Of a stretch of 41,759 nt of DNA, positions 10,249-23,471 are shown piece by piece. Numbering within the stretch: position 1 is the stretch's first letter; every line of letters starts with the position of its first letter. A program made the position numbers and the translations under genes. Under the pieces are notes generated by a model that saw only the letters and a list, made by a program, of their open reading frames with translations, had not been told where the DNA came from and ran no database searches. Where the stretch lies: the NCBI GenBank assembly GCA_030535455.1, contig JAUNJY010000036.1, positions 1-41,759 on the forward strand. Reading direction: 5' to 3'. The stretch comes from a bacterium. GTDB taxonomy: Bacteria; Bacillota; Clostridia; Lachnospirales; Lachnospiraceae.

Positions 10249-11994
10249 CTAGTTCACATGTCGTTTTACATAAGTAGTATGTAAAATCTGGTGTGCCTTT
10301 TGGCTTCCAGGAGCCCCTAAGTATTCTGCATAAACTGTTTTTATATAAGGATTTTCATGTGAACGACGAATTGGATTGTGAGCGTCCTGTTCATATAATA
10401 CTTTTGCCCGCAATTCACGTATATCTTCGAAGTTACGTATGCTTGCTGGCACATGAGGTTGCCCGCCACCATTGATACATCCGCCTGGACATCCCATAAT
10501 TTCAATAAAATGATATGTTTTTTCACCGCTCTTTACTCTTAATAGCAGTTCTTTTGCATTTTTTAGACCGGAGGCCACTGCAACATTAATCGTTGTACCA
10601 TTTAAAAGCAGACTGGCTTCCTTAATTCCGTCCATGCCACGTACGCTGGTAAACTCAATTGGTGCATCGTTGTTCTCGCCTGTAAGTTTCCATATAGCAG
10701 TACGAAGTGCAGCTTCCATAACGCCACCTGTTGCACCAAAGATGACAGCAGCACCTGAGGACATGCCTAATGGATCGTCGAATGTTTCATCAGGGAGCGA
10801 TCTAAAATTAATTCCCTGCTGATCAATCATTTGTGCCAGTTCTCTTGTAGTAATTGCTATATCGACATCAGGAACACCTGCGGCGCTCTGATTATCTCTA
10901 CCGATTTCATATTTTTTAGCTGTACAAGGCATAATGCTAACCATTACGATTTTTTTAGGATCAATATTCATTTTTTCGGCATAATAGGTCTTGCTAATTG
11001 CCCCAAACATTTGTTGTGGCGACTTACAGCTTGAAAGATTTTCTGTCATCTCAGGGAAGTAATGCTCACAGTAGTTAATCCATCCCGGAGAACAGGAGGT
11101 GATAAGTGGAAGTGTACCATTGTTTTGAATTCGATCAAGTAACTCATGGGCTTCCTCCATAATAGTCAGATCTGCTGAAAAATTAGTATCAAAGACCTTG
11201 TCAAACCCAAGCAGACGTAATGCAGCAACCATTTTACCTTGTACATTTGTTCCTATTGGATAATCAAAACATTCTCCCAGTGCAGCACGTACAGCAGGAG
11301 CAGTTTGCACCAGAACAATCTTATCAGGATCCGCAAAAGCCTCAAAGACTTGCTTTGTATAATTTTTTTCTGCTAATGCACCAGTTGGACAGACAGCAAT
11401 ACATTGGCCACAAGAGACACAACTGGTGTCTCCTAATCCCATTTCAAAGGCACAGCCAATCTGCGTTTTAAATCCTCGTTCATTGGCACCAATTACGCCT
11501 ACACTTTGAACCTGTTCACAAACAGCGGAACATCGTCTGCATAAGATACATTTTGAATTATCGCGATACATATGAGCGGCACTGGTATCAGGTTCAGACT
11601 GGGTCTGTTCGCCACTATAATAATCTTCATCATCTACTTTTAAATCCTTACAGAGCTTTTGCAGTTCGCAGTCTCTGTTTCGTATACAGGATAGACAGGA
11701 TTTATTGTGATTGGATAGTAAAAGCTGTAATGTCTTTTTTCTGGAGTCCAATACTTTAGGTGTATTTGTAAAAACCTCCATATTTTCAGCGATAGGGTAG
11801 ACACAGGAAGCAACCAGACTTCTTGCACCTTTGACTTCAACGACACAGATCCTGCAGGCACCAATCTCATTGATATCCTTTAGATAGCAGAGAGTAGGTA
11901 TATCGATATGGGCCAAATGTGCTGCTTCTAGAATGGTGGAACCCTTAGGAGCTTCTACGGTCTGCCCATTTATTTTTAAAGTTACAGTCTCCAT
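10249..11994 (-). CDS. hydA: [FeFe] hydrogenase catalytic subunit HydA of the electron-bifurcating complex
   Basis: 581 residues. The N terminus is a plant-type [2Fe-2S] ferredoxin domain ([15 protein letters not shown]), followed by a His-Cys3 type cluster ([14 protein letters not shown]) and two [4Fe-4S] motifs ([22 protein letters not shown]). The H-cluster domain has L1 TSCSPGW at 299-305, L2 MPCTAKK with C357, and L3 with C502 and C506 ([13 protein letters not shown]). L1 has Ser where many enzymes have the second Cys. This is the M3-like architecture of HydABC hydrogenases, which couple NADH and reduced ferredoxin oxidation to H2 formation in the cytoplasm. It is the last gene of the minus-strand operon, ten bases after hydB. 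Confidence 0.95.
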
Positions 11995-12004
11995 AATAAC
12001 CTCC

Positions 12005-13795
12005 TTATTTCTTTATGATGGCCCCAAATTTACATTTTTCCATACAAGCACCGCATTTTAGACATTTTAAAGGATCAATTACATGAGGATGTTTCACAGT
12101 ACCGGTAATAGCGCCAGCAGGGCAAACCCTAGCACACATTGTGCAGCCCTTGCATTTATCTGGCTGAATTTCATAATGGAGTAATGCCTTACAAACACCA
12201 GCAGGACATTTCTTATCAACCACATGTGCAAGATACTCATCTTTGAAATAACGAAGGGTAGATAACACTGGATTTGGAGCAGTCTGGCCCAATCCACAAA
12301 GAGAATTTTCTTTAATATAATAGCAAAGCTCTTCTAGTTTATCTAAGTCTTCCAATGTACCATTTCCTTTTGTGATCTTATCTAGCAGTTCAAGTAGACG
12401 TTTGGTACCGATACGGCAAGGTGTACATTTTCCACAGGATTCATCTACCGTAAACTGTAAGAAGAACTTTGCGATATCTACCATGCAGTTATCTTCATCC
12501 ATGACGATTAGTCCGCCAGATCCCATCATAGATCCGATACGGATCAGATTGTCATAATCAATTGGAATATCAAAGTGCTCTGCGGGGATACATCCACCGG
12601 AAGGACCACCAGTCTGTGCCGCTTTGAACTTTTTACCATGAGGGATGCCGCCGCCGATTTCTTCAATGACTTCTCGAAGTGTGGTACCCATTGGAATTTC
12701 AACTAGTCCTGTGTTATTGATCTTTCCACCAAGGGCAAATACTTTGGTGCCTTTGGATTTTTCTGTTCCCATTGAAGCAAACCATTTTGGACCATTTAAA
12801 ATGATTTGAGGGATATTGGCATAAGTCTCTACATTATTTAAAATCGTTGGTTTTTCAAATAATCCTTTTTGTGCTGGGAATGGAGGTCTTGGCCTAGGTT
12901 CGCCACGTTTTCCTTCAATAGAAGTCATAAGGGCAGTTTCCTCACCGCATACAAATGCGCCTGCACCAAGGCGTAAGCCAATATCAAAATTAAAGCCAGA
13001 ACTGAAAATATCATTTCCCAGTAGTCCATATTCTCTTGCCTGATTGATGGCAATCTTCAGCCTTTTTACGGCAATAGGATACTCTGCACGAACATAAATG
13101 TATCCTTGGTTGGCGCCTATGGCATATCCTGCAATGGCCATTGCCTCTAATATCACATGTGGATCACCTTCCAGGACAGAACGGTCCATAAATGCTCCAG
13201 GGTCTCCTTCATCGGCATTACAACAGACATACTTCTGGTCAGCATCATTGCCTTTTGCCAGTTTCCATTTGATACCCGTTGGAAATCCGCCGCCTCCACG
13301 GCCACGGAGCCCGCTGTCAATCAATGTCTGGATTACTTCATCAGGCGTCATGGAAGTAACGACCTTGCCTAAGGCCTCATATCCGCCTGTTCCTATGTAT
13401 TCTTCTATATTTTCAGGATTTATGACACCACAGTTACGTAAAGCGATACGATGCTGGTTTTTATAAAATTTGGTATCAGCAAGAGATTTGATATCTCCAG
13501 TGTCAGTAACTGTTTCGTTATATAAAAGGCGTTTTACGACACGGCCTTTTAACAGATGTTCTTCAACAATTTCAGGAATGTCTTCCACTTTAACCATGGA
13601 GTAAAACGATGCTTCCGGATAAACAATCATAATAGGACCTAATGCGCATAATCCGTGACAACCAGTTTGAACGACACATACCTCTTTGCTTAATCCCTGC
13701 TTTTCAATCTCCGCCTGTAAAGCCTGTATGATTTCACCACTTCCAGAAGAAGTACATCCGGTTCCACCACAAACTAAGACATGTGAACGATACAT
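12005..13795 (-). CDS. hydB: NADH-binding flavoprotein subunit HydB (NuoF-like)
   Basis: 596 residues with three parts. An N-terminal thioredoxin-fold [2Fe-2S] domain (about 1-110) has CGGTGC and CHGLC cysteines. A NuoF-like core carries GRGGGGFPTGIKW for NADH, GAGAFVCGEETAL for FMN and CGKCTPCRIG for a [4Fe-4S] cluster. A C-terminal two-cluster ferredoxin module has CKGCTMCARVC and CLKCGACMEKC. In bifurcating hydrogenases this subunit oxidises NADH at FMN and is the likely bifurcation site. It lies 13 bases after the small [2Fe-2S] gene and ten before hydA, so it is translated from the same mRNA. Confidence 0.95.
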   Translation of the reverse strand: MYRSHVLVCGGTGCTSSGSGEIIQALQAEIEKQGLSKEVCVVQTGCHGLCALGPIMIVYPEASFYSMVKVEDIPEIVEEHLLKGRVVKRLLYNETVTDTGDIKSLADTKFYKNQHRIALRNCGVINPENIEEYIGTGGYEALGKVVTSMTPDEVIQTLIDSGLRGRGGGGFPTGIKWKLAKGNDADQKYVCCNADEGDPGAFMDRSVLEGDPHVILEAMAIAGYAIGANQGYIYVRAEYPIAVKRLKIAINQAREYGLLGNDIFSSGFNFDIGLRLGAGAFVCGEETALMTSIEGKRGEPRPRPPFPAQKGLFEKPTILNNVETYANIPQIILNGPKWFASMGTEKSKGTKVFALGGKINNTGLVEIPMGTTLREVIEEIGGGIPHGKKFKAAQTGGPSGGCIPAEHFDIPIDYDNLIRIGSMMGSGGLIVMDEDNCMVDIAKFFLQFTVDESCGKCTPCRIGTKRLLELLDKITKGNGTLEDLDKLEELCYYIKENSLCGLGQTAPNPVLSTLRYFKDEYLAHVVDKKCPAGVCKALLHYEIQPDKCKGCTMCARVCPAGAITGTVKHPHVIDPLKCLKCGACMEKCKFGAIIKK

Positions 13796-13808
13796 GGAAA
13801 CTCCCCCT

Positions 13809-14183
13809 TTATGATCCGATTACCTCGGAAATGGTGTATTCTTTTACAACCTGTCCACGAATTAGGTGCTGGTCTATTACGACCATTGCTTTTTCAGGAG
13901 TCATCTTTACGTAAGTAACTTTTTCTTTACCGGGTTCCATAACTTCAACAATTGGTTCATACTGACACAAGCCAATGCATCCGGTCTGGGTCACCGTTAC
14001 ATGATCAAGCCCTTTTTCCAAAACTGCGTCAGAAAGGGCAGTGAGTACAGGTCTGGCGCCGCTTGCAATACCACACGTAGCCATGCCGACGACGACACGA
14101 GTGTCTGTATCATCTTCTGACCTAAGACCAACCTGCCCCTGCATCTTTTCACGAATGGCCCTTAGTTCTTCTAGTGACTTCAT
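13809..14183 (-). CDS. Small thioredoxin-like [2Fe-2S] ferredoxin of the hydrogenase operon (HydD-like)
   Basis: 124 residues. The start has a good ribosome site (AGGAGGT on the minus strand near 14192). The protein keeps four cysteines in a thioredoxin-like [2Fe-2S] fold (ATCGIASGA near residue 37 and QTGCIGLCQYEP near residue 90), similar to the N-terminal domain of HydB next door. It is probably an electron-transfer or assembly accessory of the hydrogenase. The operon order hydC, HATPase, this gene, hydB, hydA resembles the hydCEDBA order I recall from Acetobacterium woodii, where the equivalent is called hydD. That correspondence is inferred from order and size. Confidence 0.8.
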   Translation of the reverse strand: MKSLEELRAIREKMQGQVGLRSEDDTDTRVVVGMATCGIASGARPVLTALSDAVLEKGLDHVTVTQTGCIGLCQYEPIVEVMEPGKEKVTYVKMTPEKAMVVIDQHLIRGQVVKEYTISEVIGS

Positions 14184-14208
14184 AGAAAATACCTCCTATA
14201 ATAATGTG

Positions 14209-14763
14209 TTATAGAATTGCTCCACCATCTACAGCTATTTTATTTTCAGTTAAATATTCTTTAATATATGTAGAAACTTCCTTAGTATTTAATGGGATAT
14301 CGTTAAGAATTGTTCGAAATGTCCTTGTATCTAACTCAAAGGATTGATCGTCATATGTATAGATATAATCAAAATCAACCGCCAGATTACAAGTGATTAG
14401 AGAGTGAATTGTAGAGGTAATATCTCCTAAAGGCATTCTATCAATATGAGATAGAACAAAGGAGGCATCCACAGTAGTCCCTTCCCCTACGGTAGAGCTG
14501 ATATGAAAGGTTCCTCCAGCAGCTTCAGCCTGGAATTTGAAGAAAGGAACACCAAGACCAACTTTTCGTGTGGTTCGAGTTGTAAAGAAAGGATCGACCA
14601 CAGCTTTAAGTTGTTCATTTGTCATACCATTACCATTATCTTTGATCTGTATCGTCAATAAATCCATTGCTGTGTTAATTGTTATATGTATTATAACGAG
14701 CGACGCGCCTGCAACAATGGAATTGTTTGTTATGTCTAATACGTTGAGAGACAGCTCAGTCAT
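14209..14763 (-). CDS. Histidine-kinase-like ATPase protein in the hydrogenase operon
   Basis: About 184 residues. The start is taken at the ATG at 14763. ATG at 14766 is equally possible, and a longer frame to 14799 would overlap hydC. The first ~110 residues form a GHKL ATP-binding domain: an N box (NVLDITNNSIVAGA), a DNGNGM G1 box and a KVGLGVPFF G2 box, like the ATPase half of histidine kinases or MutL. There is no phospho-acceptor histidine domain and no membrane segment. The C-terminal ~75 residues are unassigned. It begins just after the hydC stop, so it is translationally linked to a structural hydrogenase subunit. It may phosphorylate a partner or assist assembly. Its function is unknown. 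Confidence 0.75.
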   Translation of the reverse strand: MTELSLNVLDITNNSIVAGASLVIIHITINTAMDLLTIQIKDNGNGMTNEQLKAVVDPFFTTRTTRKVGLGVPFFKFQAEAAGGTFHISSTVGEGTTVDASFVLSHIDRMPLGDITSTIHSLITCNLAVDFDYIYTYDDQSFELDTRTFRTILNDIPLNTKEVSTYIKEYLTENKIAVDGGAIL

Positions 14764-14770
14764 CATAGCC

Positions 14771-15265
14771 TTAAGCGTATTTCGCAAGTATTTCATCAAT
14801 GTCGTCTACTGTAAGTCGGCCATATACATCGTCATTCACAGTAAGAACAGGTGCGAGACCACAAGCACCAATACAACGGCATGCATCAAGAGAAAACTTA
14901 CCATCTGGTGTACATTCTCCACCTTGAATGCCAAGTTTTTCAGTGAGTTGGTTGTAAATATCACCGGAGCCCTTAACATAACAAGCAGTACCTAAGCACA
15001 CAGATATTTGATATTTTCCTTTTGGATTAAGGGAAAATTGAGAATAAAAAGTGACAACGCCATAAATTTTCTCTAATGGAATATCCATTTCATTAGAAAT
15101 GATTGTCTGTACTTCAATAGGAAGATATCCGTAGATGTCTTGGGCTTGTTGAAGAACTGGCATAAGCGCACCTTTGTCATCCTTATAAGCTTCGATAATC
15201 TGCATTAATTCGGCTTCTTGTTCTTTTGTTCCGCTAAATGGAACTGTGGATGTTTTAGAACCCAT
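14771..15265 (-). CDS. hydC: [2Fe-2S] subunit HydC (NuoE-like) of the bifurcating hydrogenase
   Basis: 164 residues, typical of NuoE/HydC. A helical N-terminal part is followed by a thioredoxin-like domain with the [2Fe-2S] cysteines in CLGTACYVKG and CRCIGACGLAP. The YGVVTFYSQF motif is characteristic of the family. It passes electrons within the HydABC complex. It is the first gene of the minus-strand operon and has a strong AAGGAGGT six bases before the ATG. The leader contains a perfect 20-base palindrome (15301-15320), and a second inverted repeat lies just upstream of the -10 box. Confidence 0.94.
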   Translation of the reverse strand: MGSKTSTVPFSGTKEQEAELMQIIEAYKDDKGALMPVLQQAQDIYGYLPIEVQTIISNEMDIPLEKIYGVVTFYSQFSLNPKGKYQISVCLGTACYVKGSGDIYNQLTEKLGIQGGECTPDGKFSLDACRCIGACGLAPVLTVNDDVYGRLTVDDIDEILAKYA

Positions 15266-15460: not shown

Positions 15461-15478
15461 TTGTTAATTATTTAACTA
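15461..15478. promoter_or_regulatory. Rex-type redox operator
   Basis: TTGTTAATTATTTAACTA matches the Rex consensus TTGTTAAnnnnTTAACAA at 13 of 14 fixed bases. It lies between the divergent hydrogenase and sensory operons. Rex proteins bind such sites when NADH is low. No rex gene is in the window. Confidence 0.6.
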
Positions 15479-15637: not shown

Positions 15638-15988
15638 GTGACTGTTTATCAAGTTTGTAAAACATTAGATGCAAAGGTTGTATGTGGTAAAAACAGTATG
15701 GACAAGGATGTTCACAATGCATGTGGTTCAGATATGTTAAGTGATGTACTTGCATTTGTGAAAGACCAATCTGTATTGTTAACAGGACTTTGTAACCCCC
15801 AGGTAATTCGTACTGCTGAAATGATGGACATTATTTGTATTGTATTTGTACGTGGAAAAGAGCCTGATAAAGCAATGGTAGAACTGGCAGACACACTTGG
15901 GATTACATTGTTAACAACTAGTCATAGAATGTTTAGTGCATGTGGACTCCTTTATGAGAAGGGTCTAAGGGGAGGTGCATCATATTGA
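15638..15988 (+). CDS. DRTGG-domain-like protein, first of the sensory operon
   Basis: 116 residues from a GTG start seven bases after GAGGAGG. The protein resembles the small free-standing DRTGG-domain proteins found next to clostridial sensory hydrogenases: an alternating beta/alpha pattern with TLDAKVVCG at the start, SVLLTGLCNPQVIRTAEMMDIICIVFVRGK in the middle and GITLLTTSHRMFSACGLLY at the end. DRTGG domains are thought to be regulatory and ligand-binding (they occur with CBS domains and in phosphotransacetylases), but the ligand is not known. A paralogue lies at 17729. Its stop codon overlaps the next gene's TTG start, implying translational coupling. Confidence 0.7.
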   Translation: MTVYQVCKTLDAKVVCGKNSMDKDVHNACGSDMLSDVLAFVKDQSVLLTGLCNPQVIRTAEMMDIICIVFVRGKEPDKAMVELADTLGITLLTTSHRMFSACGLLYEKGLRGGASY

Positions 15989-16410
15989 GTGCCTCTATGC
16001 AGCTGCATTATGTAGTTTCTTCTGAGGACTTTACGCGGGCTGGCGAAGCATCAAGTGATGTTAAGAGTAAGTTGAAGAAGCTTGGATTTTCGCCCGATGT
16101 TGTGCGTAGAGTTGCCATTATCATGTATGAAGGTGAGATTAACATGGTAATTCATGCGAATGGTGGCGAAATATCAGTTGTAATATCAGAAGAAGAAGTA
16201 GTTATGAAATTAGAGGATCATGGTCCGGGAATACCAGATGTGGAGCAGGCAATGCAGGAGGGATTTTCAACTGCACCTGACAATATACGCACATTAGGGT
16301 TTGGAGCCGGTATGGGACTTCCTAATATGAAAAAGTATGCGGACTTTATGGAGATACAGACTGAGATGAATGTGGGGACAACAGTACTTATGAAAGTAGT
16401 TGTGAGCTAG
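15985..16410 (+). CDS. RsbW/SpoIIAB-like ATP-binding protein (anti-sigma-type kinase fold)
   Basis: 141 residues, TTG start overlapping the preceding TGA, with GGGGAGG upstream. It is a compact GHKL ATPase: an N-box region (IIMYEGEINMVIHANGG), LEDHGPGIPD as the G1 box and FGAGMGLPNMKKYAD as the G2 box, ending in GTTVLMKVVV. This size and arrangement are those of the serine kinases RsbW and SpoIIAB. In such systems the kinase phosphorylates an STAS-domain antagonist and a PP2C phosphatase reverses it. A SpoIIE-like phosphatase is encoded in this operon at 20828, but no STAS protein or sigma factor is, so the substrate is unknown. Confidence 0.85.
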   Translation: MSASMQLHYVVSSEDFTRAGEASSDVKSKLKKLGFSPDVVRRVAIIMYEGEINMVIHANGGEISVVISEEEVVMKLEDHGPGIPDVEQAMQEGFSTAPDNIRTLGFGAGMGLPNMKKYADFMEIQTEMNVGTTVLMKVVVS

Positions 16411-16436
16411 AGCATTTTGGTTTGAAAGGAGAGCAA

Positions 16437-17717
16437 ATGGATAAGTTCTATAATTCAGTTCGCCTAGATGCTGATAAGTGTATGGGATGCATTAACTGCA
16501 TTAAGCGATGTCCAACACAGGCAATCCGCGTACGTAATGGGAAGGCAGTAATTACAAGGGAGTTTTGTATTGATTGTGGAGAATGTATTCGGATCTGTCC
16601 GCATCATGCAAAGCTTGCTACCTATGATAGCATGGATATCTTAAACCAATATAAGTATACAGTCGCATTGCCGGCACCAAGCCTGTATGCACAATTTAAC
16701 AATCTTGATGACATTAATATCATATTAACAGCTCTTTTAAAGCTTGGATTTGATGAAGTTTATGAAGTAAGCGGGGCAGCGGAAATTGTCTCGGAACTAT
16801 CGCGTAAATATGTTGCAGACCATAAGGAGTTATGGCCGATTATCAGTACAGCATGTCCATCAGTGGTACGCCTGATACGGGTACGGTTTCCAAATCTGAT
16901 TGAACATCTGCTTCCAATCAGTGCACCCGTAGACCTGGCAGCTTCTATCGTTAAGAAAAAGGTAATGGAAAAGACAAAGCTTCCTAGAAGTGATATTGGA
17001 ATTATCTTTATTTCACCATGTCCTGCAAAAGTGACTGCCAAGTATTCTCCGTTAGGAATTGATAAGAGCAATATTGATGCTGTACTTGCAATTAAGGAGG
17101 TGTACCCTAAGTTGCTTCCTCTTATGAAGGAGGTAAGAAATGATGTTGAGGAGCTTGCCATTGCTGGAAAAATCGGTATTTCATGGGGAAGCACCGGTGG
17201 CGAGGCAGCAGGACTCTTAACCGATAATTATCTGGCAGCGGATGGAATTGAAAATGTAATTCGTGTATTAGAGGACATTGAGGATCAAAAGTTTACCAAC
17301 TTGGAATTTATTGAATTAAATGCCTGCAATGGAGGATGTGTTGGCGGGGTACTTACAGTTGAAAACCCCTTTGTGGCAAAGGTTAAGCTTAAGCGCTTAA
17401 GAAAGTATATGCCAGTAGCATGTGTAAGGCTTAATTCTAAACCCCCTGAGAATGCATATTGGAATACCAGCGTCCAATATGAGCCGGTATTTAAGCTGGG
17501 AGAGAATTTAAAAGAAGGAATAATGCTAGGAGCCGAGGTAGAGGAAATCTTAAGCAGACTGCCAGGATTAGATTGTGGGTCCTGTGGGGCACCAACTTGT
17601 CGGGCACTTGCAGAAGATGTGGTTCGTGGTGTGGCAAAGGAAAAAGACTGCATTCATATCTTACGAGAATATATCCATAAGATATCCAATGAAATCAACA
17701 GGCTTGATCAAGAATAG
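16437..17717 (+). CDS. H-cluster protein related to sensory [FeFe] hydrogenases (no PAS domain)
   Basis: 426 residues from the ATG at 16437, after AAAGGAG. A TTG at 16422 precedes that ribosome site and is rejected. It starts with two [4Fe-4S] motifs (CMGCINCIKRC, CIDCGECIRIC). The H-cluster domain keeps all four cluster cysteines, C140, C195, C297 and C301, but L1 reads STACPS with A139 in place of the proton-donating Cys, L2 is SPCPAK and L3 is ACNGGCVGG. A further Fe-S motif, CGSCGAPTC, lies near residue 385, ahead of a short helical tail. Ala at that L1 place is known from the Thermotoga maritima sensory enzyme HydS. Slow or signalling turnover is therefore more likely than bulk H2 production. 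Confidence 0.85.
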   Translation: MDKFYNSVRLDADKCMGCINCIKRCPTQAIRVRNGKAVITREFCIDCGECIRICPHHAKLATYDSMDILNQYKYTVALPAPSLYAQFNNLDDINIILTALLKLGFDEVYEVSGAAEIVSELSRKYVADHKELWPIISTACPSVVRLIRVRFPNLIEHLLPISAPVDLAASIVKKKVMEKTKLPRSDIGIIFISPCPAKVTAKYSPLGIDKSNIDAVLAIKEVYPKLLPLMKEVRNDVEELAIAGKIGISWGSTGGEAAGLLTDNYLAADGIENVIRVLEDIEDQKFTNLEFIELNACNGGCVGGVLTVENPFVAKVKLKRLRKYMPVACVRLNSKPPENAYWNTSVQYEPVFKLGENLKEGIMLGAEVEEILSRLPGLDCGSCGAPTCRALAEDVVRGVAKEKDCIHILREYIHKISNEINRLDQE

Positions 17718-17728
17718 GAGGATATAGG

Positions 17729-18064
17729 TTGACAGTTAAGGAGTTAATTGAGAGTGGCAAATTTCATGTGATTAATGACCAAGGGGATTGTACCAAGGAA
17801 ATCACAGTACCATTTTGCTGCGACTTATTAAGCATCGCTATGAGCAAAGCACCTGCCGGAGCAGCTTGGGTTACCGTTATGGGAAATGTGAATACGATTG
17901 CTGTTGCATCACTTACTGAAGTCTCTGTATTAATACTTGCGCAAGGTATGAAGCTGGATGAATTTGCATTGAAGAAGGCAAGGAGTCAGAACATCATAGT
18001 GCTGGCGTCTTCTATGCCGATCTTTGAAGCGGCGTACTGGATTTATAAACAGATGCATGACTAG
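17729..18064 (+). CDS. DRTGG-domain-like protein, second copy
   Basis: 111 residues. The TTG start is supported by AGGAGG seven bases upstream and an 11-base gap after the H-cluster gene. It is similar in length and pattern to the protein at 15638 (TVKELIESGKFHVIN, then WVTVMGNVNTIAVASLTEVSVLILAQG and NIIVLASSMPIFEAAYWIY), so the two look like paralogues. They might form a heterodimer or bind two related ligands. The last eight bases overlap the start of the PHP gene (ATGACTAG). Confidence 0.7.
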   Translation: MTVKELIESGKFHVINDQGDCTKEITVPFCCDLLSIAMSKAPAGAAWVTVMGNVNTIAVASLTEVSVLILAQGMKLDEFALKKARSQNIIVLASSMPIFEAAYWIYKQMHD

Positions 18065-18779
18065 ATTGGCATATGACCTACATATCCATTCCTGCCTGTC
18101 ACCTTGCGCAGATGATGACATGACACCAGCAAACATAGTAGGAATGGCATCAATTAAGGAACTAGATGTAATTGCGCTTACGGACCATAACAGCTGTAAA
18201 AACTGTAAGGCACTTATGGAGTGGTCAAAACAGTATGGTATTTTAGCACTGCCTGGAATGGAACTGACAACACAGGAAGAGGTGCACGTATTATGCCTGT
18301 TCTCATCATTGGAAAGTGCAGTTCAGTTTGACTCTTATGTCTACTCCAGGCTAGGCATGATAAAAAATGACAGCGAGATTTTTGGAAATCAGTTTTTGTA
18401 TAATGAAAAGGATGAAAAAGCGGGAGAAGAGGGGCGCTTGTTAATTCAAAGCACGTCCATCCGCTTTGATGAAGTATATCATCTTATGCAGCAGTATGAT
18501 GGGGTTATGATACCGGCACATATTGATAAGAATGCCAACAGCCTGCTATATAATCTGGGGTTTATTCCAGAGAAAAGCAAGTTTAGGTGTGTGGAAATAT
18601 CCAATTTACAGAACAAAAAGCAGTTATGCGAGGAACAGGAGTATTTAAGGGCCATAAGAGTTATATCAAACTCAGACGCTCATTATCTGACTGATATAAA
18701 CGAGCCAAAGAACTGGATGGAAGTCGAGGAGCCCACCATTGATGGGGTAATGGATTGGTTGAGAAATACTAGGAATTGA
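18057..18779 (+). CDS. PHP-domain metal-dependent phosphoesterase-like protein
   Basis: 240 residues from the ATG at 18057 that overlaps the previous stop. The earlier frame start at 18024 lies inside the preceding gene. The PHP motifs are present in order: DLHIHSCLSPCADDD, LTDHNS, PGMELTT, VHVLCLF, PAHIDK and SNSDAHYL, giving the histidine and aspartate ligands of a multi-metal site. PHP enzymes hydrolyse phosphoesters or nucleotides (histidinol phosphate, 3'-5' nucleotides, DNA ends). The substrate here cannot be read from sequence. Its conserved company with sensory hydrogenases suggests turnover of a signal nucleotide or a phosphate on a partner, which is inference only. Confidence 0.85.
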   Translation: MTRLAYDLHIHSCLSPCADDDMTPANIVGMASIKELDVIALTDHNSCKNCKALMEWSKQYGILALPGMELTTQEEVHVLCLFSSLESAVQFDSYVYSRLGMIKNDSEIFGNQFLYNEKDEKAGEEGRLLIQSTSIRFDEVYHLMQQYDGVMIPAHIDKNANSLLYNLGFIPEKSKFRCVEISNLQNKKQLCEEQEYLRAIRVISNSDAHYLTDINEPKNWMEVEEPTIDGVMDWLRNTRN

Positions 18780-18823
18780 CATTTATTAGGAATGGTAAAA
18801 ATGGTAGAATAGGGGGGATTAGA

Positions 18824-19069
18824 TTGGATATTACAATATGCATCGGAAGTTCCTGTCATTTAAAAGGTTCACGAGAAATTGTCAGTGAGCTGCAACGGCT
18901 CTTAAAGGAGCATGGCCTTCAGGATCAGGTTGAGCTTAATGGATCATTTTGCATGGGGCAATGTGTAAAGGGAGTCTGTACAAAGATTGATGGAAAGCTA
19001 TTTTCTTTGTCACCAGAGGATACGGATTCATTTTTTGAGAATGAAGTGCTTAGGAGGCTGAATGGATGA
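18824..19069 (+). CDS. Small NuoE/HydC-like [2Fe-2S] protein
   Basis: 81 residues from the TTG at 18824, six bases after a run GGGGGG. A longer frame from a TTG at 18776 has a poorly spaced site. The protein is a stand-alone thioredoxin-fold [2Fe-2S] domain with CIGSSCHLKG and CMGQCVKGVC, equivalent to the C-terminal half of HydC. It overlaps the HydS start by four bases (ATGA), so it probably supplies or takes electrons directly from HydS. Confidence 0.85.
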   Translation: MDITICIGSSCHLKGSREIVSELQRLLKEHGLQDQVELNGSFCMGQCVKGVCTKIDGKLFSLSPEDTDSFFENEVLRRLNG

Positions 19070-20799
19070 ATGTAATTGGCTTCAGAGAGGCTCGCTGTAA
19101 GAATTGTTATAAATGTGTTCGTATTTGTGAGGTTAAAGCAATTGTAGTAAAAGATCAGCAGGCACAAATTCGTGATGACCTTTGTATTCTTTGCGGGCAT
19201 TGTCTTGATGCCTGTCCTCAAAATGCCAAGACATTAATCAGTGATCTTGATCGGGTAAAGGAATTTATCCGAAGTAAAAAGACAACGATCATATCTTTGG
19301 CACCCTCCTATCTTGGAATTATGAAGTATAAGAAAGTCGGGCAGGTAGTGACGGCCTTAAAGAGACTGGGATTTACAGAGGTAAGGGAGACTTCAGAGGG
19401 AGCAGCATATGTGACAAGAGAGTATGTAAGGCTTCTTGAAGAGGGGAAAATGAAGAATATCATTACTACATGTTGTCCCAGTGCCAATGACTTGATTGAA
19501 ATATATTATCCAAGCCTGACAAATGATATGGCACCAGTAGTCTCTCCTATGATTGCCCATGGAAGACTGATAAAGGAACAGCTTGGAGAAGAGGTTAAGG
19601 TAGTATTCTTAGGTCCATGCATTGCAAAGAAGCGGGAAGCACTGGGGGATGGCCGAACGGCAGGTGCCGTGGATGCAGTCATAAATTTTACGGAGGTTGA
19701 GGAATGGCTTAAGGAGGAGAAAATTGAGATTTCTAGCTTAAGCGAGACGGAGTTTGACAATAAAAATCCGGAAGTAAATAGGTTGTATCCAATTACAAGC
19801 GGAGTGCTGTCTTCGGTCGTAGCTTCCTCAACAAGAGATCATTATCGCAAGTTTTATGTCCATGGGTTAAGAAACTGTATTGAGCTTCTTAAGAGTATGG
19901 AGAAGGGTGAGGTAGAGGATTGTTTTATTGAACTGAATGTATGTAATGGCGGATGTATCAAGGGGCCTGCAGTGGATACTTCTTATATCTCCAGATTTAA
20001 GGTGAAGCTGGACATGGAAGAATCAATACCAAAAACTCCTGCAGGAGATGGATTTTTTAATTCAGATACAGAGCTTTCATTTAAGAAGACATTTACACCT
20101 CGTAAAAGTAAGGATCCAATTCCTACGGATGAACAAATTCGTGCCATCCTGAAGAAGATTGGGAAAAATGATCCAAGCCATGAGTTAAATTGTGGAGCGT
20201 GTGGCTATTCTTCCTGCAGAGAAAAGGCAATTGCCGTATTCCAAGGAAAGGCAGAGCTTAGCATGTGCATCCCTTATATGCATGATAAGGCAAGTTCCAT
20301 GGCAAATGTGGTGATGGATACCACGCCCAATATCATTATCATGGTAGATTCGGATATGAAGATTGTGGAGTATAATGCAGCAGCAGAGGTATATTTCCAT
20401 TATTCAAAGGAGCAGGCATTGTCCATGTATCTGTATGAAATTGTTGACCACAGTGATTTTCAGTATGTACTGGATACCAGGTCTAGAATTTTAGGCAAAA
20501 AGGTGACTTATAAGGAGTTTGGAGTGACCACGCTGCAGAATATCGTTTATGTTCCAGATCAAAACAACGTACTTGGAATTATGGTAGATATCACGGCAGA
20601 AGAAGAGAAAGAATTAAAGGCATATGAAGTTAAGATGGATACCATTGAGATGGCCCAGAAGGTCATTGACAAGCAGATGATGGTGGCTCAGGAGATCGCA
20701 GGATTACTTGGAGAGACCACAGCAGAGACCAAGGTAACATTAACCAAGCTACGTGATACCATTTTATATGATGGAGAGGAACATCACGTAGATCAGTAA
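19066..20799 (+). CDS. hydS: Sensory [FeFe] hydrogenase HydS with PAS domain (group C type)
   Basis: 577 residues, ATG overlapping the previous stop. It starts with two [4Fe-4S] motifs (CKNCYKCVRIC, CILCGHCLDAC). The H-cluster domain has L1 TTCCPS (C136, C137), L2 GPCIAKK (C185) and L3 VCNGGCIKGPA (C293, C297). An extra Fe-S motif, CGACGYSSC, lies around residue 380, then a PAS domain (about 415-515, MDTTPNIIIMVDSDMKIVEYN) and a C-terminal helix. The PAS domain in place of electron-transfer modules is the hallmark of HydS, thought to sense H2 or redox state and signal to a downstream partner. The phosphatase gene follows immediately, which fits the phosphatase-linked subgroup. Confidence 0.93.
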   Translation: MNVIGFREARCKNCYKCVRICEVKAIVVKDQQAQIRDDLCILCGHCLDACPQNAKTLISDLDRVKEFIRSKKTTIISLAPSYLGIMKYKKVGQVVTALKRLGFTEVRETSEGAAYVTREYVRLLEEGKMKNIITTCCPSANDLIEIYYPSLTNDMAPVVSPMIAHGRLIKEQLGEEVKVVFLGPCIAKKREALGDGRTAGAVDAVINFTEVEEWLKEEKIEISSLSETEFDNKNPEVNRLYPITSGVLSSVVASSTRDHYRKFYVHGLRNCIELLKSMEKGEVEDCFIELNVCNGGCIKGPAVDTSYISRFKVKLDMEESIPKTPAGDGFFNSDTELSFKKTFTPRKSKDPIPTDEQIRAILKKIGKNDPSHELNCGACGYSSCREKAIAVFQGKAELSMCIPYMHDKASSMANVVMDTTPNIIIMVDSDMKIVEYNAAAEVYFHYSKEQALSMYLYEIVDHSDFQYVLDTRSRILGKKVTYKEFGVTTLQNIVYVPDQNNVLGIMVDITAEEEKELKAYEVKMDTIEMAQKVIDKQMMVAQEIAGLLGETTAETKVTLTKLRDTILYDGEEHHVDQ

Positions 20800-20827
20800 A
20801 CTACAGTTGAGAGAGGAACAAGTCAGA

Positions 20828-22000
20828 ATGGGTGTAAATGTTGATATCTCTTATAAAAGCTTAAATAAGCATGAGGAAGAGTTATGTGGGGATAAGGTTG
20901 AATTATTGAAGACAAATGATTCAGATATTATTATTCTTGCAGACGGAATGGGAAGTGGGGTAAAAGCAAATATATTGGCAACCCTGACTTCAAAAATCCT
21001 TGGAACTATGCTGATTAACGGAGCATCCTTGGAGGATTGTGTGGAGACGATTATTTTAACGCTTCCGGTATGTAAAATACGTCAGGTGGCATATTCTACA
21101 TTTAGCATCTTACAGATTTATCATTCTGGAGAAGCCTATCTTGTGGAGTTTGATAATCCAAGCTGTATCTTTATCCGAGAAGGAAAGCTGGTGCAGATAC
21201 CATTTAAGGAACGCCTTATCCATGATAAGAAGATTAGAGAGTATCGTTGCAATGTTAGTTTAGGAGATTATTTTGTGCTGATGAGTGATGGAGTCGTACA
21301 TGCAGGAGTGGGAAAACTATTAAATTTCGGTTGGTCCTGGGAGAATGTTGCTGAGTATGCAGTAAATGCAGTTAAGACATGTGCGACGGCAGACCGATTG
21401 GTTACCGCTCTTTCAGATGCCTGTGATGAGCTTTATATGCAGTCACCGGGAGACGACACGACGGTAGCAGTTGCAAAGGTGACGGACAAGAAAGTGGTAG
21501 GACTACTTACAGGACCTCCTGTAAATCCAGAGGATGATCAAAGGATGATACAGGACTTTATGGAACAGGAAGGCAAGAAGGTAGTCTGTGGAGGAACGAC
21601 TGCAAATATTATTTCAAGAGAATTACAACGTGGGATTACAACTTCCCTTGAGTATCTAGATCCAAATGTTCCGCCAATTGCACATATTGTTGGAATTGAT
21701 CTGGTAACAGAAGGAGTGCTAACGCTGACAAAGACGCTGCACCTATTAAAAAAATATGCCAATAATGAAGTGGATGAGGATTTTTTCATCCAGCTGGATC
21801 AGAAAAATGGTGCTGCCATGGTTGCCAAAATCATTATTGAAGAGTGCAGTGATTTATATCTTTATGTTGGACGTGCCATCAATGTTGCACATCAAAATCC
21901 AGAGTTGCCATTTGACCTTAGTATTCGAATGAATTTGGTACATCAGATTGAGACGGTAGTAAAGGAAATGGGGAAACAAATTACAATTAAGTATTACTAA
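20828..22000 (+). CDS. SpoIIE/PP2C-family serine phosphatase
   Basis: 390 residues from the ATG at 20828 with GAGAGG upstream. A TTG at 20807 precedes that site and is less likely. The N-terminal ~220 residues hold the PP2C signature: ILADGMGSG, then LMSDGVVHAG and GDDTTVAVAKV, whose aspartates bind two metal ions. The C-terminal ~165 residues (from about KKVVGLLTGPPVNPEDDQ) form a conserved extension of unknown role. PP2C phosphatases of this type dephosphorylate phosphoserine antagonists in partner-switching modules. Here its activity is probably set by HydS, encoded 28 bases upstream. No membrane segments are present, so it is cytosolic. Confidence 0.87.
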   Translation: MGVNVDISYKSLNKHEEELCGDKVELLKTNDSDIIILADGMGSGVKANILATLTSKILGTMLINGASLEDCVETIILTLPVCKIRQVAYSTFSILQIYHSGEAYLVEFDNPSCIFIREGKLVQIPFKERLIHDKKIREYRCNVSLGDYFVLMSDGVVHAGVGKLLNFGWSWENVAEYAVNAVKTCATADRLVTALSDACDELYMQSPGDDTTVAVAKVTDKKVVGLLTGPPVNPEDDQRMIQDFMEQEGKKVVCGGTTANIISRELQRGITTSLEYLDPNVPPIAHIVGIDLVTEGVLTLTKTLHLLKKYANNEVDEDFFIQLDQKNGAAMVAKIIIEECSDLYLYVGRAINVAHQNPELPFDLSIRMNLVHQIETVVKEMGKQITIKYY

Positions 22001-22013
22001 TGGAGGAAGAAAC

Positions 22014-23471
22014 ATGTTAGGAGAAAATGCAAAGTTAGGGAATATTAAACATGAGGTACTTTTTCAAGTTGCAAAGGCAGCATTCGCAGGGAAGTTAGAA
22101 GAAGTAAGAGATCGAATTCCATTTGATATGATTGAAGGACCTCAGGCAAATTTTAGATGCTGTATCTACAGAGAACGAGAAATTATCAGGCAGAGAGTAC
22201 GTTTGGCAGAAGGAAAGCCAACTAACGAAAGTATGGATGATCAGAACATCATTCAAGTAATCAACTCTGCCTGCGAGGGTTGTCCAATTACAAGATTTAC
22301 AGTAACGGATAACTGCCAGAAATGTATTAGTAAGAAGTGCCAGCAAGCCTGTAAGTTTGGTGCCATTTCCATGACAAAGGATAGGGCTTATATTGACCCT
22401 TCGAAATGCAAAGAGTGTGGAAAGTGTTCCGAGGCTTGTCCTTACAATGCCATTGCTGATTTGCAGAGACCATGTAAAAAGGCATGTCCTGTAGACGCCA
22501 TTTCATGGGATAAATATAAGATTATACATATTGATGAAGAAAAGTGCATAACCTGCGGCCAGTGTATTATCAGCTGTCCATTTGGTGCAATTGGAGATCG
22601 ATCTTTTATTGTAGATGTAATTAATTTAATTAATTCAGGAAGGCCAGTATATGCTTGCGTTGCACCGGCAATTGAGGGTCAATTTGGTAAAGACGTAACC
22701 ATCGGAGTACTTCATGAAGCAATTAAGGAATTAGGTTTTAAGGACATGTATGAGGTTGCCCTAGGTGCAGACTTAGTTGCAGAGTCGGAGGCAAAAGAGT
22801 GGATGGAAGGATATGAACAGGGAAAGAAGATGACAACATCCTGTTGTCCTGCTTTTGTAAATATGATTAAAAAGCATTATCCACAGCTAATTGAAAATGT
22901 GTCTACCACCGTTTCTCCAATGGCAGCAACAGCTCGCTTTATTAAGAATATCGACCCGGAAGCAGTGGTAGTATTTATTGGACCTTGCATTGCGAAAAAA
23001 GGAGAAGTATTAGATAGCGTAGCAGACACTAACTCAGATTATGCATTGACATTTGAAGAGCTAAATGCCATGTTCCGTGCAAAGGAGATTGACCTTAAGA
23101 AGTTCCATGGAGAGATGCAGCAAGGAAGCATTTATGGAAAACGTTTTTCACAGTCTGGAGGCGTAACAGCAGCAGTAATAGAAGCATTAAAGGAAATGAA
23201 TGAGAGTACCAATGTGAAGGTAAAACAATGTAACGGTGCAGCAGAATGTAAGAAAGGTCTGTTATTGCTGAAGATTGGAAGGCTTCCAGAAGACTTTATC
23301 GAGGGAATGGCTTGTGAAGGCGGATGTATGAAGGGCCCAGGTAATTTGTCAAGTGACCTGATGACGGCTAAGAATAGGGAAACATTACTTGCCGAGGCAG
23401 ATTCTCGGAGCATTCAGGAGAATATTGAGCAGCAAAATGCAGGGGGAGTTGAGCTGCATCGACATAAATAG
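22014..23471 (+). CDS. Group B-type monomeric [FeFe] hydrogenase
   Basis: 485 residues, ATG after GGAGGAAG, 13 bases after the phosphatase gene. The N-terminal ~85 residues are unassigned. Then come a set of Fe-S motifs (CEGCPITRF, CQKCISKKCQQAC, CKECGKCSEAC, CKKAC, CITCGQCIISC) and an H-cluster domain with L1 TSCCPA (C277, C278), L2 GPCIAKK (C325) and L3 ACEGGCMKGPG (C434, C438). This fits group B, common in clostridia and presumed ferredoxin-linked but biochemically little studied. All catalytic cysteines are present, so it may be the active output of the sensory operon. No clear terminator separates it from glpK. Confidence 0.9.
   Translation: MLGENAKLGNIKHEVLFQVAKAAFAGKLEEVRDRIPFDMIEGPQANFRCCIYREREIIRQRVRLAEGKPTNESMDDQNIIQVINSACEGCPITRFTVTDNCQKCISKKCQQACKFGAISMTKDRAYIDPSKCKECGKCSEACPYNAIADLQRPCKKACPVDAISWDKYKIIHIDEEKCITCGQCIISCPFGAIGDRSFIVDVINLINSGRPVYACVAPAIEGQFGKDVTIGVLHEAIKELGFKDMYEVALGADLVAESEAKEWMEGYEQGKKMTTSCCPAFVNMIKKHYPQLIENVSTTVSPMAATARFIKNIDPEAVVVFIGPCIAKKGEVLDSVADTNSDYALTFEELNAMFRAKEIDLKKFHGEMQQGSIYGKRFSQSGGVTAAVIEALKEMNESTNVKVKQCNGAAECKKGLLLLKIGRLPEDFIEGMACEGGCMKGPGNLSSDLMTAKNRETLLAEADSRSIQENIEQQNAGGVELHRHK

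Follow-up and report, generated by a model that had tools for sequence, protein, structure and literature searches.

Does a bacterial gene cluster that brings together a kinase-fold ATPase, a PP2C phosphatase and sensory hydrogenases encode one signaling circuit or several? This question is raised by nine genes located at positions 15638-23471 of a 41,759-nucleotide stretch of DNA from a member of the Lachnospiraceae (GenBank assembly GCA_030535455.1, contig JAUNJY010000036.1, positions 1 to 41,759 of the forward strand), the whole of which is called the window below. A first reading, made from the sequence only, had described the locus as a single operon in which the ATPase and the phosphatase would be the opposing enzymes of one partner switch, transmitting a hydrogen signal as serine phosphorylation. 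The present survey leads to a different answer. The nine genes are two hydrogen-sensor gene sets, named here modules D and C, that stand end to end and are joined in this lineage, and the ATPase and the phosphatase are probably not a matched pair, each of them following a different sensor.

Ethanol yield rises when hfsB is deleted, and HydS of the rumen bacterium Ruminococcus albus presumably tracks H2. In the literature covered, no downstream partner has been proven for the output of a sensory [FeFe]-hydrogenase. The survey distinguishes two signaling branches that could readily be mistaken for each other, places each enzyme with its own sensor and names testable partners, namely the DRTGG proteins for the group D sensor, and an adhE-linked kinase together with AdhE for the group C sensor. 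These results are of interest for the H2 and ethanol yields of biofuel strains, as well as for the cycling of H2 in the gut and the rumen.

Organization of the Nine-Gene Locus

Nine tightly packed open reading frames (ORFs) with intact catalytic residues were confirmed on one strand, with the coordinates given by the sequence-only reading. Domains were called by Pfam and NCBIfam profile scans of ten proteins.

15638..15988 (+): module D, DRTGG protein 1 (DRTGG 32.4 bits, cut-off 25.2)
15985..16410 (+): module D, SpoIIAB-like ATPase/kinase-fold protein (HATPase_c 43.5 bits; N and G boxes intact)
16422..17717 (+): module D, group D-type (M2e) sensory [FeFe]-hydrogenase (Fe_hyd_lg_C and iron-sulfur (FeS) domains, no PAS; likelier start ATG 16437)
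17729..18064 (+): module D, DRTGG-like protein 2 (DRTGG 17.0 bits, below cut-off)
18024..18779 (+): module D, PHP phosphoesterase (PHP 30.9 bits; likelier start ATG 18057)
18776..19069 (+): module C, 2Fe-2S thioredoxin-like protein, HfsA-like (29.4 bits; better ribosome-binding site at TTG 18824)
19066..20799 (+): module C, HydS (HfsB-like), group C-type [FeFe]-hydrogenase (Fe_hyd_lg_C, FeS and PAS; C-terminal helix)
20807..22000 (+): module C, SpoIIE-type PP2C phosphatase, HfsC-like (SpoIIE 50.5 bits; likelier start ATG 20828)
22014..23471 (+): module C, group B [FeFe]-hydrogenase, HfsD-like (TIGR04105 617.5 bits, above the cut-off of 450)

HfsA is taken here to be the 2Fe-2S protein. Ribosome-binding sequences and alignments indicate that the true starts of the group D protein, the PHP protein, the 2Fe-2S protein and the phosphatase probably lie later than listed. 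Along the listed ORFs the successive gaps are -4, 11, 11, -41, -4, -4, 7, and 13 bases, and the next gene, glpK, begins 86 bases beyond the ninth ORF. From this spacing the nine genes would form one transcription unit. A scan for consensus terminators gave no excess over chance (4 found vs. 4.5 expected), the only match on the + strand lying inside the group B gene.

The earlier domain calls, including that of a HydS-like sensor with a PAS domain (31.6 bits), agree with the profile scans, except that the ATPase, then called RsbW-like, is nearer to SpoIIAB (anti-sigma F). Six Fe_hyd_lg_C matches are found in the genome, four of them in the window, that is, the three of the nine-gene locus and HydA of a divergent bifurcating operon.

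Two Sensors, Each With Its Own Enzyme

Genes for the group D protein, the phosphatase, the ATPase and HydS were sought by profile searches in 196 genomes of the same GTDB class (G000 is the source genome, other G numbers are surveyed genomes and L numbers are stretches fetched from relatives). Left out were 14 of 118 group D rows that scored below 160 bits and represent other hydrogenases, 10 of 69 HydS rows that are fragments or stop by position 445, before a complete PAS region, and one of the two phosphatase rows of G036 (a gene split across contig ends). The partial or weak phosphatase rows of G054, G142, and G055 and all 105 ATPase rows were retained.

The ATPase follows the group D hydrogenase: both occur in 101 genomes, the ATPase only in 2, the group D protein only in 2 and neither in 91. 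The phosphatase follows HydS in the same manner, with 58 genomes having both, none having HydS only, one (G106) having the phosphatase only and 137 having neither. At the level of gene order, the ATPase lies directly 5' of the group D gene at 99 of 105 ATPase places, and HydS has the phosphatase immediately on its 3' side at 57 of its 59 places, the exceptions being G084 and the first of two tandem HydS genes in G034. At such frequencies neither adjacency can be due to chance, and the linkage of HydS to the phosphatase is near-absolute. Across the two sets the association is much looser. ATPase and phosphatase occur together in 39 genomes, the ATPase only in 64, the phosphatase only in 20 and neither in 73 (odds ratio 2.2, p 0.013); for HydS and the group D protein the corresponding numbers are 40, 18 (HydS only), 63 (group D only), and 75 (odds ratio 2.6). 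The ATPase and phosphatase genes share a contig in 12 genomes and lie on different contigs in the remainder; they are at most 10 kb apart in 2 of these 12, G000 and G084, which are also the only genomes where HydS and the group D gene are at most 20 kb apart.

Closer relatives of the window give the same picture. We inspected named HydS loci from the best 80 of 267 relatives, a choice biased toward close relatives, with flanks of up to 10 kb. The phosphatase is directly behind HydS in 77 of them; among the other three, L018 and L059 show only the thioredoxin-like gene and HydS, and in L017 the phosphatase is next in order, beyond the distance limit. HydB comes next in 60 of 74 testable relatives, which gives the hfsABCD gene order (2Fe-2S protein, HydS, phosphatase, hydrogenase) also seen in the window. 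The ATPase is found in 13 of the 80 stretches, always beside divergent hydABC genes, its absence from the other 67 applying to flanks of up to 10 kb. The full nine genes in the order of the window are present in L007 (a 93% relative) and L016, and partial versions in L020 and L084. In G084 (L246), a phosphatase of the window's family stands directly before module D, with HydS about 13 kb away, which is a second and different joining of the modules.

Hence the ATPase and the phosphatase were rejected as one partner-switch pair, by their distribution over genomes and by their proximity in only 2 of 12 cases. The sequence-only reading expected both enzymes to be conserved with HydS; this is so for the phosphatase (58 of 58 HydS genomes), not for the ATPase. 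Its other expectation, that catalytic residues are retained, is verified in homologues above set score floors, for the ATPase (98/98), the phosphatase (55/55) and the PHP protein (92/92). The locus thus has the intact ATPase and PP2C active sites of a partner switch, without a STAS antagonist or a conserved kinase/phosphatase pair. A STAS target within the operon was likewise rejected, as no STAS domain was found among the ten proteins scanned at the locus, the search being confined to these.

Module D

The anatomy of module D was examined in stretches from 100 of the 104 group D places of the class, the source genome, a second copy in G083 and the places of G042 and G009 (where the match starts at the contig start) being omitted. 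Counted over places with room, the composition is near-invariant: DRTGG protein 1 in 93/94, the ATPase in 97/98, DRTGG protein 2 in 93/98, and the PHP protein in 87/95. L158 and L159 account for two of the DRTGG protein 2 misses and two of the PHP misses, and in both the gene lies about 4 kb further along. A de novo search for extra genes beside the module revealed no additional widespread partner among the top 16 clusters, the biggest other cluster occurring in 11 of the 100 stretches.

The ATPase has intact N and G boxes in all 98 homologues, and four of its five closest solved structures are SpoIIAB; its score against the SpoIIAB equivalog TIGR01925 is 58.3 bits, below the cut-off of 135. 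The sensor has an H-cluster domain and C-terminal FeS motifs and is devoid of PAS, as expected for group D (M2e). It carries A144, E261, and E298, found in 77, 81, and 101 of 101 homologues, respectively. By numbering offsets, these residues would correspond to A137, E252, and E289 of TamHydS, for which the relevant passages of PMC10407848 describe an alanine replacing the proton-transfer cysteine and two glutamates of group D.

DRTGG protein 1 passes the Pfam cut-off and has the fold of the domain, with MurE, HPr kinase and NIF3 among its fold matches at lower Z. Residues D32, S35, and T49 of DRTGG protein 2 are conserved as in DRTGG protein 1. In the PHP protein, nine conserved His, Asp, or Glu positions are identical in 92 of 92 homologues.

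The Divergent hydABC Operon

Upstream of the nine genes, the window carries the following elements on the other side of, and within, a shared promoter region.

10249..15265 (-): divergent hydABC operon of the bifurcating type, which also encodes a small 2Fe-2S protein and a second ATPase; usual neighbor of module D
14209-14799 (-): second ATPase within the hydABC operon
15461..15478 (+): Rex-like operator TTGTTAA-N4-TTAACAA with 1 mismatch, in the divergent promoter region shared by the hydABC and nine-gene operons

The group D gene of the window is thus accompanied by both an adjoining ATPase and a bifurcating hydrogenase. In the 100 module D stretches, hydB was found in 62 and the second ATPase in 72, counts that are limited by stretch and contig ends. 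The gene directly after PHP is hydC at 47 places and the second ATPase at 18; at 10 places module D forms part of the hyd operon, with hydC standing immediately before it in the same direction. Since the second ATPase can also follow PHP in stretches having no hydABC (L230, L239, L243), the data suggest that it belongs to module D.

The Rex-like box gives 1 match against 0.01 expected in shuffled sequences. It is also present in the close relative L007 and is not evident in L016 or L020.

Module C

The four cysteines C137, C185, C293, and C297 of HydS, presumably the H-cluster ligands, are present in the window and in 58 of 58 homologues. They are followed by a C-terminal FeS motif Cx2Cx4Cx16C (C376, C379, C384, C401) and by the PAS domain. 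With a Ser/Thr phosphatase linked at 57 of 59 places, the protein has the features of a group C (C3) enzyme.

Conservation of HydS, averaged over 22 sequences with region limits of our choosing, is highest in the C-terminal region 526-567 (0.90), followed by the FeS motif (371-405, 0.85), the N-terminal ferredoxin part (0.78), the H-domain (0.71), and PAS (0.62). Region 526-567, which from its sequence looks like a helix, is more conserved than the catalytic domain; it may be the surface for a partner, the adjoining phosphatase being the simplest choice. In the phosphatase, the C-terminal part (about residues 230-397, window 21494-21997, +) has no Pfam match, and 55 of 60 rows of the class search cover the profile nearly whole.

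As a separate observation, HydS retains a cysteine at position 136 (window 19471-19473) on the proton path, where homologues have C in 41, A in 11, and S in 5 of 58. According to the passages of PMC10407848 concerned, group C and D enzymes mostly have alanine there.

A Kinase Beside adhE and a Candidate Target

Among the 57 HydS stretches fetched over the class, 14 have in the same gene cluster a co-directional gene for an APH-fold kinase (three were scanned and gave Pfam APH scores of 49.8-54.3 bits), and in 11 of these it directly adjoins adhE. Of the 196 genomes, 46 have a member of the kinase family, 22 of the 58 with HydS and 24 of the 138 without. The 18 kinase places fetched from these 24 HydS-less genomes all adjoin adhE, as does 1 of 2 further places from HydS genomes. 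In the source genome, the kinase gene (contig C122, 28354-29088) is convergent with adhE (stretch L318:5554-9116). In total, the kinase neighbors adhE at 31 of 35 places examined (stretches L318 and L319-L337 among them), which makes it a conserved adhE-linked kinase.

Published genetics of the hfs genes point in a similar direction. As reported in the parts of PMC5707799 consulted, deletion of hfsA or hfsB raised the adhE transcript two- and threefold and increased NADH-linked alcohol dehydrogenase activity, NADH-linked aldehyde dehydrogenase activity being unchanged, and the high ethanol yield required wild-type hfsC and hfsD. The same passages name adhE as a possible target, with regulation that may be post-transcriptional too, and relate that, for R. 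albus, Zheng 2014 proposed a signal passing from HydS to a neighboring Ser/Thr kinase. From this genetics and gene linkage, the best candidate for the substrate of the phosphatase is AdhE or a regulator of AdhE, a proposal that we make tentatively. Among the matches listed for adhE, kinase and HydS in the open-access literature, nothing further was found.

A TnpB-Like Protein and RNA in Some HydS Operons

Downstream of the phosphatase, on the same strand, a TnpB/Cas12f-like protein is encoded in 11 of 58 HydS genomes and in 0 of 138 others (p 7e-7; loci L253, L254, L255, L256, L258, and L261-L266, for example L254:6895-8508, +). In G072, G048, and G095, adhE stands between the phosphatase and the TnpB-like gene. 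The protein was not found in the source genome. Ten aligned members lack the RuvC acids at the positions given by the TnpB motifs and retain the zinc-ribbon cysteines; the Pfam profile Cas12f1-like_TNB passes its cut-off in 2 of the 4 proteins scanned.

Directly 3' of the TnpB-like gene, a conserved RNA is present at 11 of 11 loci (L307:5867-5973, -; L310:1669-1785, +; and nine equivalents). Its pseudoknot helix is paired in every sequence and shows double-sided changes at two of five pairs (GCTGC/GCAGC, GCTAC/GTAGC, GCTGT/ACAGC). Pairing holds in 86% and 83% of cells for the two remaining helices, failures coming mainly from G063 and G131, and by eye a terminator-like hairpin follows about 4-14 bases after the RNA in most loci. 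Rfam, run on 5 of the 11 stretches, gave tRNA only. Guide targets, sought in two or three stretches per genome and not in whole genomes, gave only short matches, none convincing. The TnpB-like protein is a candidate exapted RNA-guided regulator of the H2-sensor operon.

Proposed Mechanism and Alternatives

We consider it likely that two modules sensing H2 or redox state have been joined in the locus as a single transcription unit, module D serving hydABC and module C signaling via its phosphatase. In module D, the group D sensor would work with a SpoIIAB-like ATPase of its own, the two DRTGG proteins and PHP in the service of the neighboring bifurcating hydrogenase: H2 sensing would lead to phosphorylation, Ser35 of DRTGG being a possible acceptor and PHP the reverse enzyme, and hydABC would thereby be controlled. 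In module C, the redox state of HydS would be relayed by the FeS and PAS domains and the highly conserved C-terminal helix to the SpoIIE-type phosphatase acting in trans, the signal presumably running in this direction. By dephosphorylating a Ser/Thr protein, the phosphatase would set the balance of ethanol vs. H2, and the APH-fold kinase encoded beside adhE would be the opposing enzyme. Accordingly worded, the idea of an H2 signal passing through serine phosphorylation survives for the route through the phosphatase and is lost for the ATPase/phosphatase pair. A stronger version makes module D an undescribed, self-contained H2-responsive switch, with a SpoIIAB-like kinase acting on paired DRTGG proteins that replace STAS, PHP as reverse enzyme and the bifurcating hydrogenase as the controlled system, and adds a module C branch where the HydS-controlled phosphatase and the adhE-linked kinase set the phosphorylation of AdhE. 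In this full form the scheme is rather improbable; if true, H2 pressure would, through a single operon, set the output of H2 as well as that of ethanol.

Several observations weigh against the reading we favor. That the nine genes share one transcript is predicted from their spacing. The bifurcating operon is not an obligate neighbor of module D, because hydB is found in just 62 of the 100 stretches and 20 places have more than 4 kb after PHP free of profiled genes. For the PHP protein, the nearest structures, themselves weak matches, are nuclease and other non-protein phosphoesterases and not a known protein phosphatase. The open-access literature yielded no assay showing H2 sensing by a group C or D protein acting on a phosphatase. 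On the side of module C, the APH-fold kinase is weakly tied to HydS across genomes (22/58 vs. 24/138) and missing from each of the 80 named HydS stretches in the relatives of the window; of these stretches, only 4 have adhE-like genes nearby. Finally, the adhE transcript changes given in the passages of PMC5707799 mean that control may be transcriptional.

Three other explanations deserve consideration. That ATPase and phosphatase form one partner-switching circuit, phosphorylating and dephosphorylating a shared antagonist, fits the intact catalytic residues of both and their presence in the same operon here, as well as a co-occurrence that is weak yet above chance; in G084, moreover, the PP2C of the window's family lies 403 bases from the ATPase, before module D. 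We nevertheless hold it to be very unlikely, given that each enzyme is found alone in 64 and 20 genomes, that proximity is confined to 2 of 12 and that the operon has no STAS protein. It is also unlikely, if less starkly so, that the role of HydS and HfsA is to transfer electrons with the catalytic hydrogenases and not to signal, the effects of the phosphatase being indirect. HydS does keep all H-cluster ligands and, in most homologues (41 of 58), its second active-site cysteine, C136, and part of PMC13277313 raises HfsABC as a possible working hydrogenase; against this stand the PAS domain, the location of the best conserved region in a C-terminal helix outside the catalytic part, and the dependence of the hfsA/hfsB ethanol effect on wild-type hfsC and hfsD in the excerpts of PMC5707799.

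Control of HydABC by a nucleotide or small molecule, which DRTGG would bind and PHP hydrolyze, the ATPases being chaperones or assembly factors, is a possibility to be taken seriously, though with clearly less than even confidence. Weak as they are, the nearest structural relatives of PHP are other hydrolases of the PHP family, an exoribonuclease among them. A pyrophosphatase (3l2b) has DRTGG folds in its regulatory region, and module D is accompanied by a second ATPase. The best solved relatives of the first ATPase, mostly SpoIIAB, speak for a kinase instead, and so does the conservation of Ser35 and Thr49 in both DRTGG families, residues that may also be structural.

Comparison With Known Systems

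In the open-access literature, no description was found of the five-gene composition of module D with its DRTGG and PHP proteins; a search for DRTGG with hydrogenase gave a match on D. vulgaris genetics. Its nearest described counterparts include TamHydS of group D (M2e), which, in the passages of PMC8163306, is also without PAS, has a C-terminal Cx2Cx4Cx16C motif and adjoins a histidine-kinase-like ATPase and a bifurcating hydrogenase. These passages place an AraC-family gene beside it and do not mention DRTGG or PHP partners. The same group D arrangement is reported for Thermoanaerobacter in the part of PMC3608648 concerned. Thus a group D sensor beside an ATPase and a bifurcating hydrogenase has been described.

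SpoIIAB/SpoIIAA/SpoIIE and RsbW/RsbV/RsbU use the same folds, a kinase-fold ATPase and a PP2C phosphatase. In contrast to these systems, neither a STAS antagonist nor a sigma factor was found among the proteins scanned at the locus, whose two enzymes belong to different modules.

Module C is already known. In the consulted parts of PMC11837493 and PMC5707799, hfsABCD of Thermoanaerobacterium and the HydS-HydA2 cluster of R. albus likewise comprise a 2Fe-2S protein, a PAS-bearing hydrogenase, a serine phosphatase and a hydrogenase, and passages of PMC6776011 and PMC10838669 on the R. albus cluster cover the same module. Group C3 of HydDB, "phosphatase-linked (putative)," also unites a group C hydrogenase with a Ser/Thr phosphatase; as excerpted from PMC5037454, the entry names neither a target nor an opposing kinase. 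The likeness to hfsABCD is one of gene content and order. Unlike hfsABCD, module C of the window is joined behind module D, with adhE and the kinase located elsewhere in the genome.

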